From Glutamicibacter soli (GTDB taxonomy: Bacteria; Actinomycetota; Actinomycetes; Actinomycetales; Micrococcaceae): a stretch of 64,000 nucleotides of DNA. Below, piece after piece: positions 32,940-35,344 of the stretch. A model generated the notes under the pieces. It saw only the letters and a list, made by a program, of their open reading frames with translations. It had not been told where the DNA came from and did not search any database. Location of the stretch: contig NZ_POAF01000008.1 of assembly GCF_003309065.1 (NCBI RefSeq), positions 1-64,000 on the forward strand, given 5' to 3'. A program made the position numbers and the translations under genes. Every line of letters starts with the position of its first letter. Position 1 is the stretch's first letter.

Positions 32940-33395
32940 TCAGGCCTGGCTGGTGTCAAGCTCCTCGGTTCTGGCCACCACGCTCACCTCGGTTCCCAGC
33001 ACGGACACCGTCACGGACTTCAGCGACGGATCGCCAAACTCTTCCAGCAGCCGCAACGCGAAATATTTCAGATCCCGATCCGTGGTGGGTTCCGAGCCGT
33101 TCACACTCAGTTCCAGCTCGCCGGGCTTCGAGGCTCCCCAGCTGACGATCTGGCGTTCGGCGGTCCCCGGCATCCACAGCTGCACCGAGGAATCATCGCG
33201 CAGCCAATAGGCTTCCATCAGCTGGTCCGCCCAGCGTTGGCCCTCAACGGCTTCGCCGCGTTTCCGCTCCAGCTCGGTCTGCTCTTTGGGGGATACCGCC
33301 GGGGCCGTGGGCGAACTCGGCTCGAACTCCAGCGGCGCGCAACCAACCAGGGCGCAGACGAGCAGCAGGACGCTGGGAACTGCGAGCCTGCGCAT
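32940..33395 (-). CDS. Putative lipoprotein of unknown function
   Basis: 151 aa. The N-terminus has two Arg, a hydrophobic core and lipobox LVGC with the modified Cys at residue 19, so it should be exported and lipid-anchored. The mature part begins with a Pro/Ser/Glu-rich linker. No family is recognised. The end, VTVSVLGTEVSVVARTEELD, suggests a small beta-rich domain. It is convergent with the PhzF gene and diverges from the ABC-F leader, with which it shares an 85-base spacer. Confidence 0.7.
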   Translation of the reverse strand: MRRLAVPSVLLLVCALVGCAPLEFEPSSPTAPAVSPKEQTELERKRGEAVEGQRWADQLMEAYWLRDDSSVQLWMPGTAERQIVSWGASKPGELELSVNGSEPTTDRDLKYFALRLLEEFGDPSLKSVTVSVLGTEVSVVARTEELDTSQA

Positions 33396-33445
33396 TGAAC
33401 CTCCTGGATTGCCGCACTCTGAATTCTAGTTGCCGCACGCTCTCA

Positions 33446-33474
33446 TTGCCCGCGCCAGCGGCTGAGAGTAGGCT
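33446..33474 (+). promoter_or_regulatory. Promoter of the ABC-F leader transcript
   Basis: TTGCCC at 33446-33451 and TAGGCT at 33469-33474 are separated by 17 bases. The start site predicted seven bases after the -10 box is the A of the ATG at 33481, so the leader peptide would be translated from a leaderless mRNA. Confidence 0.65.
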
Positions 33475-33480
33475 GAATCC

Positions 33481-33501
33481 ATGGGTACGTTGCATCATTA
33501 A
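33481..33501 (+). CDS. Six-residue leader peptide MGTLHH upstream of the ABC-F gene
   Basis: ATG GGT ACG TTG CAT CAT TAA. Its first base coincides with the predicted transcription start. It is followed by two competing RNA folds and then, 121 bases after its stop codon, by an ABC-F gene. Antibiotic-resistance ABC-F genes are often controlled by ribosome stalling on such short upstream frames. Translation is not demonstrated; the frame is very short and its meaning rests on context. Confidence 0.5.
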   Translation: MGTLHH

Positions 33502-33585
33502 GACTGCCGCCGCGTTGAGCCGTGCTCCGCGATGGACAGTTCTGATCCGCCGCAGGTCACCTGCGGCGGCACCCTTGAACGTACC
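33484..33585 (+). promoter_or_regulatory. Candidate ribosome-mediated attenuator of the ABC-F gene
   Basis: Fold 1 is a hairpin with a perfect 10-bp stem, CCGCCGCAGG at 33547-33556 and CCTGCGGCGG at 33560-33569. Fold 2 pairs GGTACGTT (33484-33491, inside the leader peptide) with AACGTACC (33578-33585), and TGCCGCCGC (33505-33513) with GCGGCGGCA (33563-33571). The folds share 33563-33569 and exclude each other. A ribosome on the leader peptide would block fold 2. There is no long T tract, so control could act on transcription or on translation. Confidence 0.55.
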
Positions 33586-33622
33586 GGTTCCGCCTGATTC
33601 GCGGGCCGCCAGCAGATGACGG

Positions 33623-35344
33623 ATGGCCATGACCCGACAACACGACCCCTCGAATATCCCTGCGGCTGAGCAGGCCGCGGTGCCCTCAGCGGAATTCACC
33701 TGCCAACTTCTGGACCTGAGCGTGAGCTTCGGCGACCGCGACGTCCTGGAAAACATCGACTTAGCGATCGGACCGGCCGATCGGATCGCGGTGCTCGGCG
33801 ACAACGGCTCGGGAAAATCAACGCTCCTGCGTGTATTGTCAGGCACGCTTGCGCCTGACCGCGGTGAGCGGCGCGCCACCGTGCCCGGCGCCATCGCCTA
33901 CGCCGCGCAGAATCCGCAATTACCTGGCACCGCCAGCATCGCCGAGGTCATCGACTCTTACCATCACCGGCTGCGGCAGCTGGAAGAACTGATCGGCGCC
34001 ATCGGGGCCCGGCTCGCGCAAGCCGAAGACGCCGAGGCTGAACGGCTGCTGGCCCAGCTCCAGCTGGTGACCGACCTGTACGAGGCGGCCGACGGATACT
34101 CCGTCGGTCCGCGGCTGGACAGTTCGTTGCAGCAGCTCGGGCTCGGAGGCATTCCCCGAGGGACGCCGGTTGGCACGTTGTCCGGGGGCCAGCGCTCGCG
34201 GTTGGCGCTGGCCTGCGTGCTCAGCTCCGGTGCGCAACTGCTGCTGCTCGACGAACCGACCAACGACCTCGATGACACCGCGCTGCACTGGCTGGAAACC
34301 ACGCTCCGGCGGCACCGCGGCGCACTGGTGCTCGTCAGCCACGATCGAGTCTTCCTGGAGCGTTTCGCCCGGCGCATCATCCTGGTCGAAAACCGCGGCC
34401 TGACAGCCTACGGCGACGGCTACCGGGGATTCCTGCGGGCCAAGGCCGCCGAACGGGCCGCCGCCATCGCCGCCTTCGACAGCTGGCGCGACGAGCTTGA
34501 ACGCTCCGAAACCCTGGTCGCGAAGAACGCCGCACGCGTGGCGGCCATCCCGCGAAAGCAGGACAAAGCTGGTTTTGGGCACGGCTCCTTCAGGCTGCGC
34601 AGCAGGGACCACGGATCAACCAGCAGGATCCGGCAGGCAAAATCCCGGATCGAAGAACTTGAGTCAAACCCCGCGCCCAGGCCGGCGGAACAACTCGAAT
34701 TCAGGATGCCGCACGGCGGGGACACCCCCGAAGAACCGCGGCAGCCCTTGCTACACTCCACCGGTGCGGCGCGGCGGGGAGTCCCGCGGCTCGTTCTTGG
34801 CGAAATGACGCTGGCCGCGGGGGACCGCTGGCTTGTGGGCGGACCCAACGGCGCCGGCAAAACCACGCTGCTGAAGGTGCTGGCCGGAGAGCTGCCCGTA
34901 GAGCGAGGCCTGGTCAGCCGCCGGGAAGGGCTGCGCATCGGATGGCTGCGGCAGGAACTCGGCAAGCTGCCCGGGGAAACCGTGATCGAGGCGTTCGCCG
35001 CCGCGCTGGGGATCTACCAGGACGAGGCGGTGTCGCGGATTTTCACGCTCGGGCTCTTCGCCCCGCGCGATCTCTTTGTGCACCCCAGGGCGCTGTCAGC
35101 CGGACAACGCCGCCGTCTCGAACTGGCCATCGCGGTCAGCCGGGAAGCGGACCTGCTGCTGTTGGACGAGCCGACCAACCACCTTTCTCCGGACCTGGTC
35201 GAGCAGTTGGAAGATGCGGTGGCGGATTATCCCGGAGCCGTTGTCACAGTGACCCACGACCGACGCTGGAGGGAAAAGCAAGGTGTGCATCGCGGTGTCC
35301 GGTTCCTTGAAGTCAAGCAGGGACGGGTGCGCTTCGACCGATGA
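33623..35344 (+). CDS. ABC-F ATPase, ribosome-protection (antibiotic resistance) type
   Basis: 573 aa with two ABC cassettes and no membrane segments. Cassette 1: Walker A GDNGSGKSTLLRVL, signature LSGGQRSRLALA, Walker B LLLLDEPTNDLDD. A linker of about 100 charged residues contains GHGSFRLRSRDHGSTSRIRQ. Cassette 2: GGPNGAGKTTLLKVL, LSAGQRRRLELA, LLLLDEPTNHLS. It resembles actinobacterial self-resistance factors (TlrC/OleB/LmrC group), which expel macrolides, lincosamides or streptogramins from the ribosome; drug specificity is not readable. The upstream leader peptide and folds suggest drug-inducible expression. Start is ATG 33623 or 33629. Confidence 0.88.
   Translation: MAMTRQHDPSNIPAAEQAAVPSAEFTCQLLDLSVSFGDRDVLENIDLAIGPADRIAVLGDNGSGKSTLLRVLSGTLAPDRGERRATVPGAIAYAAQNPQLPGTASIAEVIDSYHHRLRQLEELIGAIGARLAQAEDAEAERLLAQLQLVTDLYEAADGYSVGPRLDSSLQQLGLGGIPRGTPVGTLSGGQRSRLALACVLSSGAQLLLLDEPTNDLDDTALHWLETTLRRHRGALVLVSHDRVFLERFARRIILVENRGLTAYGDGYRGFLRAKAAERAAAIAAFDSWRDELERSETLVAKNAARVAAIPRKQDKAGFGHGSFRLRSRDHGSTSRIRQAKSRIEELESNPAPRPAEQLEFRMPHGGDTPEEPRQPLLHSTGAARRGVPRLVLGEMTLAAGDRWLVGGPNGAGKTTLLKVLAGELPVERGLVSRREGLRIGWLRQELGKLPGETVIEAFAAALGIYQDEAVSRIFTLGLFAPRDLFVHPRALSAGQRRRLELAIAVSREADLLLLDEPTNHLSPDLVEQLEDAVADYPGAVVTVTHDRRWREKQGVHRGVRFLEVKQGRVRFDR

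Follow-up and report, generated by a model that had tools for sequence, protein, structure and literature searches.

The question raised by this locus is how an ABC-F gene (33623-35344, plus strand) of Glutamicibacter soli is controlled, since a very short open reading frame and several predicted RNA folds lie directly before it in the 64,000-nt stretch of DNA analysed here (the window). The answer that we consider rather probable, from comparison of related leaders, is that an ARE4-like ABC-F of the macrolide type is under ribosome-mediated attenuation, with a leaderless upstream open reading frame (uORF) as the sensor. The gene was assigned as TlrC/CarA/OleB/SrmB-like from NCBIfam and from comparison with its relatives; the best of 190 NCBIfam matches is NF000171 (TlrC/CarA/OleB/SrmB; E 2.5e-163), yet its score of 544.4 bits lies under the curated cut-off of 800, and the protein is therefore named ARE4-like, i.e. 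related to the family and not filed in it. The best sequence matches in the PDB are ABC-F proteins of several kinds. The ARE4 members CarA, SrmB, TlrC and OleB are classed among the macrolide resistance factors (PMC6723617), and the window gene probably protects ribosomes from macrolide antibiotics. Its true start may be the second ATG, at 33629; the relatives begin ATGAC. One relative (L014, in G001) carries a single in-frame TGA, and another (G009:C8:148458-149021) was matched as a fragment only, with four stops.

The elements of the leader all lie on the plus strand. A -35-like hexamer TTGCCC (33446-33451), visible in the sequence and resembled by TTGNNN near the same place in many relatives (by eye), is followed after a 17-nt spacer by the -10 hexamer TAGGCT (33469-33474). 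As the latter lies 6 nt before the ATG at 33481, the 5' end of the window transcript is predicted to fall on or adjoining the start codon of the uORF, a predicted frame ATGGGTACGTTGCATCATTAA (33481-33501) that encodes MGTLHH-stop and shares the conserved MG[T/S][L/I] start. A sequence-only reading of the same DNA had placed the promoter, the uORF, a hairpin at 33547-33569 and two long-range helices in this leader, and each is present exactly where it was said to be. Generic searches were uniformly negative: a promoter scan needing 9 of 12 consensus bases gave no site in 33300-33750, a terminator scan gave no U-tract terminator in the same interval, and none of 4227 Rfam models matched 33380-33700 up to E 1. 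The whole leader folds only moderately better than its shuffles (z -1.84; 7 of 200 shuffles as good). Divergent from the ABC-F leader, on the minus strand, is a 151-codon lipoprotein-like ORF (32940-33395) with no Pfam match.

Recurrence of the uORF was counted in 57 ABC-F loci (L002-L020, L167-L171, L173-L176, L183-L210 and L032). Left out of this set were L172, whose gene is the one already counted as L017, and L021-L031, L033-L037 and L177-L182, among which L177 has the gene of L019 and L182 that of L018. A strict test for the uORF (TANNNT, 6 or 7 nt, ATG or GTG, 3-14 codons) was passed by 42 of the 57 loci vs 101 of 5700 dinucleotide shuffles, and a combined test that also asks for a P1 hairpin 5' arm no more than 45 nt past the stop by 30 of 57 vs 2 of 5700, both counts being uncorrected for kinship. 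Distant ABC-F controls passed the strict test in 1 of 20 cases and the combined test in none; under looser criteria a possible uORF appeared in four of the 20 (L254, L258, L261, L268), each time without P1. Across the 44 leaders with a uORF the gap from the -10 box to the start codon is 6 nt in 19, 7 nt in 23 and 8 nt in one, with no match in one; in L187, L188, L189 and L202 the uORF stands 10-12 nt behind a -10-like box (by eye). No uORF was found in nine of the 57 loci. Several distant ABC-F genes (L250, L252, L256, L266) seem by eye to be leaderless, a -10 box preceding their own start codon by 6-7 nt.

The leaderless leader peptide that had been proposed before a resistance-type ABC-F recurs in the genus and also outside its family and order. 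All 16 genomes of the genus in which the ABC-F relative is intact carry a -10 box followed by an MGT uORF, two more genomes of the genus having no intact relative at the similarity used; other genera of the same family have MGALIR, MGTLFS, MGSLFL and MGTLFL, and another family of the same order has MGTLV. Across the class the uORFs include MGSL, MGTL, MGSLFL, MGYRFL and MRLYFFL among others, and MGSLIFL precedes the gene of Actinomadura oligospora; this species, Nonomuraea gerenzanensis and several Streptomyces are the named relatives with such a leader. Members of the MRL type (L197, L201, L203, L204, L207, L208) have an operator-like inverted repeat, AGACG-N3-CGTCT, across the -10 box. The short pattern TAGNNT + 6 nt + RTGGGNAC was tried as a signature of the leader and was dropped: it matches in 162 of 396 genomes, is frequent in controls too, and mostly starts long ORFs, so that the motif alone is unspecific for the ABC-F leader. 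Among 40 such matched stretches five begin short ORFs (MGTQDFHKGLHTVR, MGTVCAEART, MGTA, a 54-codon and a 19-codon ORF) and the rest long ones, many of ~250-270 codons. An ORF of ~250-275 codons starting ATGGGAAC directly behind a TAGNNT box was seen in many genomes of the order (L113-L117, L122, L123, L125, L126 and others).

The residues of the leader peptide appear to be kept more closely than its codons. In 28 leaders beginning MG[T/S], positions 2-4 use all four Gly, seven Thr/Ser and six Leu/Ile codons, and this constancy of MG[T/S][L/I] over drifting codons suggests that it is the peptide, not the RNA, that is kept. We infer that the leader ORF is translated and that it is the peptide itself that counts. 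The peptides end in [F/Y]L-stop in 22 of 44 leaders and in L in 29 of 44, the window's peptide ending HH, and L014 and L016 keep Phe-Leu through codons that lack UUCCU. The shortest peptides are of 3-5 codons (MGSL in three, MGTL in two and MLP in one of the 44). None of the 44 contains the cysteine run that marks the mycobacterial cysteine attenuators. In 2020 Canestrari (cited in PMC13236596) reportedly described leaderless uORFs as cysteine attenuators in mycobacteria.

The most widely conserved RNA element found is the predicted hairpin P1 (33511-33531), which was absent from the elements of the sequence-only reading and is identified by covariation and by its match to a model, R1. Its architecture consists of a lower stem, a bulge beginning with U, GAGC, a loop, GCUC and the return of the stem, which in the window takes the form CGCG, UU bulge, GAGC, loop CGU, GCUC, CGCG, with the bulge 13 nt past the uORF stop and a pair probability of 0.99. 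In 27 aligned examples 85.7% of cells are paired vs 75.1% when shuffled and 32-53% when slid (kinship uncorrected), and the covariation score is 0.317 vs 0.161 in shuffles, while two of five measures are no better than shuffles (double-change pairs 122/500, further pair types 293/500). Entry into the alignment was partly conditional on pairing of the core; the outer pairs (columns 3-7), which were not a condition, also change on both sides. The core is present in 39 of 51 leaders and missing in 12, in a survey that includes seven leaders added by hand (L187, L188, L189, L202, L214, L221 and L030). Among same-genus leaders it is present in 9 of 16, the other seven being without the core though the uORF is kept. 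In a group of MRL leaders the standard P1 is replaced by a form with a long apical arm and a bulge of 3-4 nt; the MRL peptides may be ErmD-like.

Model R1 matches the window at 33505-33537 (34.2 bits, E 4e-4), and over 394 genomes 138 matched at E 0.05 or better. Inspection of 30 matched loci identified 14 as ABC-F leaders, among them L212, in which the uORF is visible. A wider R1 regulon was considered and rejected for these loci, the other 16 having by eye no ABC-F downstream and seeming to be fortuitous hits to GC-rich coding sequence; R1 may still have other target genes. Outside the model set, P1 was tested on 8 of 40 plasmid records with a protein relative (H1, H2, H3, H5, H6, H7, H11, H17), and MGSL-stop followed by P1 was seen in six of the eight, with 19-25 nt from stop to bulge. 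The -10 gap is 7 nt in five of these six leaders, which include two near-copy pairs (H1/H2 and H3/H5), and 10 nt in that of Nonomuraea gerenzanensis; R1 scores them at 22.0 to 37.3 bits vs 14.6 for the best control locus. The Streptomyces griseofuscus plasmid has a different leaderless-type short ORF and no P1, and in the Streptantibioticus cattleyicolor plasmid no such short ORF was seen. Consensus folding with RNAalifold of 14 Streptomyces-type leaders gave P1 together with a short helix inside the uORF, with one double change in 12 pairs; from 10 same-genus leaders, six of which are without the P1 core, it recovered not P1 but the second hairpin, P2, and a helix near the start, with a few double changes.

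By the distance from the uORF stop to the P1 bulge, most of the 39 P1 leaders fall into two groups: 13, whose peptides have 4-7 codons, at 19-21 nt, and 16, whose peptides have 6-11 codons, at 12-15 nt; the remaining 10 (16 to 32 nt) belong to neither. Over all 39 the spread measured from the stop (SD 5.7) is hardly under that measured from the start (6.6), and the groups are defined by the stop-to-bulge distance itself, so that phasing of P1 to the stop rests on those same groups. In L195 and L196 a 12-nt segment with the uORF stop codon in it is tandemly duplicated, where L221 has it once, and it is apparently (by eye) for this reason that their distance is 32 rather than 20 nt. With moderate support, then, it would be a ribosome at the uORF stop codon that meets P1.

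On the proposed mechanism, the promoter would place the start of the transcript on the start codon of the uORF, and a drug would stall the ribosome that translates it, probably by arrest at or near the stop codon if the MsrDL peptide is a valid model. In the window and its relatives such a ribosome would cover part of the 5' side of P1, and in Streptomyces-type leaders it would stand just short of P1; the RNA between P1 and the ABC-F start would then change in such a way that more ABC-F protein is made, and the controlled step could be transcription termination, ABC-F translation or both. The pair probability of P1 in the window drops from 0.99 to 0.09 once 33481-33511 is masked in imitation of a ribosome at the uORF stop. 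Over 42 leaders the ABC-F start region is in the model slightly more accessible with a ribosome on the last uORF codon (0.46 vs 0.40, p 0.0025, kinship uncorrected); a ribosome at the uORF start codon gives 0.44 (p 0.052), and control windows hidden in the same manner have no effect (0.39, p 0.43). The window itself goes from 0.58 to 0.60, practically no gain. From these and from the duplex-energy, uORF-pairing, synonymous-codon and long-range-helix tests L170 and L176 were excluded, a wrong start codon having been assigned to them. Attenuation by the ribosome, which the sequence-only reading had thought the likely logic, is supported as the likely one: the uORF and its promoter spacing recur, and the peptide is conserved over codon drift. 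The leaderless character of the uORF is also the source of the idea that such control would depend on 70S initiation.

The switch originally envisaged was of a different kind, in that uORF codons were to form a long-range fold of two helices competing with P2 (CCGCCGCAGG-TCA-CCTGCGGCGG, 33547-33569), and occupancy of the uORF by ribosomes was to choose between the folds. P2 is itself a candidate terminator or spacer hairpin without a U tract, with a pair probability of 0.99 in the window and two double compensatory changes (A-U to G-C and G-C to C-G), as well as one further pair lost, in the closest relative L003. Both long-range helices are perfect, and their longest Watson-Crick runs exceed mononucleotide shuffles in the window (0/100 for each) and in L003 (0/100 and 1/100), though they were chosen by the earlier reader after the sequence had been seen, and when scored by duplex energy the first stands at 0.095 of shuffles. 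The first helix (33484-33491, within the uORF, with 33578-33585; 8 bp, pair probability 0.78) does not compete with P2 but encloses and coexists with it, and with P1 as well; the second (33505-33513, overlapping the 5' arm of P1, with 33563-33571, overlapping the 3' arm of P2; 9 bp) has a predicted pair probability of ~0 and costs 6.4 kcal/mol to force. Nor would the ribosome choose, since with 33481-33511 hidden neither long-range helix forms and P2 stays at 0.97. As to conservation, the first helix occurs only in the window and L003 of 42 leaders, and an analogue of the second rises above shuffles at the 5% level only in these two of 31 (on average it does not surpass them; mean fraction 0.50 over the 31), L003 having lost one pair and turned another to G-U; what stands of the original claim is therefore the perfect complementarity in two leaders, and what falls is its retention in the others that were tested, 40 leaders in the case of the first helix and 29 in that of the second. 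Absence of the paired segments from close relatives, which had been named beforehand as evidence against the fold, is nearly what was found, the window and L003 alone retaining it. The complementarity of the second helix is explained by the sequence CCGCCGC, which in both the window and L003 occurs in the 5' arm of P1 and again in that of P2. A competing two-helix switch is on these results very improbable as the mechanism, and it is possible that the long-range pairing is an elaboration private to the window species and L003.

A simpler translational control would dispense with P1 except in a secondary role: the RNA of the uORF would mask the ABC-F ribosome-binding site and any ribosome on the uORF would unmask it. 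We regard this as unlikely, and assign the same standing, taken jointly, to its two variants, in which AUGGG of the uORF pairs with CCCAU at the ABC-F start or UUCCU of a Phe-Leu pair of codons pairs with the Shine-Dalgarno sequence. RNAalifold does pair AUGGG (GUGGG in two) with an invariant CCCAU in 10 of 10 genus leaders, and uORF bases 1-12 and 1-18 pair with the start region better than reversed or cross-leader controls (p 0.0012 and 0.0041; 3.9e-6 and 0.0042; kinship uncorrected), but the AUGGG/CCCAU pairs are near-invariant, with a single G-U change, and as they hardly vary no covariation signal comes from them. UUCCU is found in 15 of 42 uORFs, but the two leaders L014 and L016, already mentioned, do without it, and synonymous recoding of the uORF pairs equally well (p 0.33 with the Shine-Dalgarno sequence, 0.083 with a wider region). 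Selection of the uORF for RNA pairing with the ABC-F start was accordingly rejected, there being in the synonymous-codon test no complementarity beyond what the peptide demands. The uORF and hairpin might instead only set basal expression or mRNA stability, as a leaderless 5' end followed by a protective or pausing hairpin, with no sensing of drugs, and this we think quite unlikely. The drug response of these leaders is so far a prediction, some of the peptides have just 3-5 codons, and mycobacteria have many leaderless transcripts with short ORFs (PMC4633059), all of which would suit such a role. Stability alone, however, does not demand that residues be kept over codon drift; distant ABC-F genes of the same genomes are without the uORF-P1 pair; and related resistance ABC-F genes are under uORF control (PMC10314930, PMC8546547, PMC12421871, PMC10201436).

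That uORFs control ABC-F genes is established (PMC8546547, PMC12421871, PMC10201436, PMC10314930), and the feature by which such attenuators are recognised, a short and conserved uORF a little way before the ABC-F gene, is found here as well. The nearest parallel is streptococcal msrD, whose leader peptide MsrDL (MYLIFM) arrests the ribosome at the stop codon with erythromycin, the release factors being blocked (PMC10314930). Both systems have a macrolide-type ABC-F behind a very short uORF, a hydrophobic peptide, with Phe (or Tyr) before its last residue in 22 of 44 of the present leaders, and a hairpin soon after the uORF within touch of a ribosome at the stop codon. Unlike msrD, the present leaders have a leaderless-type uORF, peptides that start MG[T/S] and usually end in Leu (HH in the window), and a conserved bulged hairpin without a U tract, and their arrest is a prediction by analogy (PMC10314930). 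The actinobacterial resistance ABC-F genes lmrC, tiaA and are5sc also have long leaders with uORFs, and predicted terminator/antiterminator folds, but these ARE5 subfamily uORFs (MLV, MVGDDDISG) have ribosome binding sites in the 5' UTRs, and the term 'leaderless' has no occurrence in the text of either source (PMC8546547, PMC12421871). Very short conserved uORFs likewise precede the Firmicutes resistance genes cplR, vmlR, vmlR2 and lsaA, with the different consensus sequences MR[I/M], MIN, MK[L/Q] and MAGN, and the cplR terminator, unlike P1 or P2, has a U tract and covers the Shine-Dalgarno sequence (PMC10201436). Leaderless short ORFs used or proposed as attenuators are found in mycobacteria, where they have cysteine runs and precede cysteine genes rather than an ABC-F gene (PMC4633059); the mycobacterial whiB7 uORF is an attenuation uORF before an actinobacterial antibiotic-response gene, but it lies ~10 nt after a Shine-Dalgarno sequence and is followed by a U-tailed terminator (PMC4128351).

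Neither leaderless uORFs before ABC-F genes as such nor their combination, ahead of ARE4-like genes, with a bulged hairpin close to the stop appeared among the literature matches listed, in a search that left preprints and most subscription journals uncovered. We would advance only tentatively the further notion that the leaders represent a distinct and widespread actinobacterial resistance switch, composed of a leaderless sensor of 3-14 codons and a P1 readout at a set distance from its stop. In such a switch the extreme 5' end of the mRNA would be the ribosome's sole point of entry to the sensor, and P1 would be encountered by a ribosome halted at termination; as a leaderless sensor needs no Shine-Dalgarno sequence, its response to initiation inhibitors would differ from that of attenuators led by one. 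If this is true, inducible actinobacterial ABC-F resistance, including that of relatives of macrolide-producer genes, would be widely wired through leaderless uORFs, and two separate fields, leaderless translation and drug-sensing arrest peptides, would be joined. The leaders would moreover offer natural peptides of 4-11 codons for the study of arrest at termination, and a conserved hairpin that has no Rfam family. The prokaryote workflow of uORF4u includes a Shine-Dalgarno search (PMC10219788), from which we infer that leaderless uORFs may be under-reported, and tools that seek this sequence may have passed such sensors over.

Other ABC-F genes too are preceded by very short uORFs near promoter-like boxes, ATGAAGTCC-stop and MKS in L177, L178, L179 and L181 and MRS in L026; in L177-L179 hairpins with a similar U-bulge and GAGC lie near the ABC-F start. 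In a further ABC-F clade, L030 (G008) has an MQYLLFL uORF with leaderless spacing and the P1 core 25 nt past its stop, before a protein that is only 35% identical.
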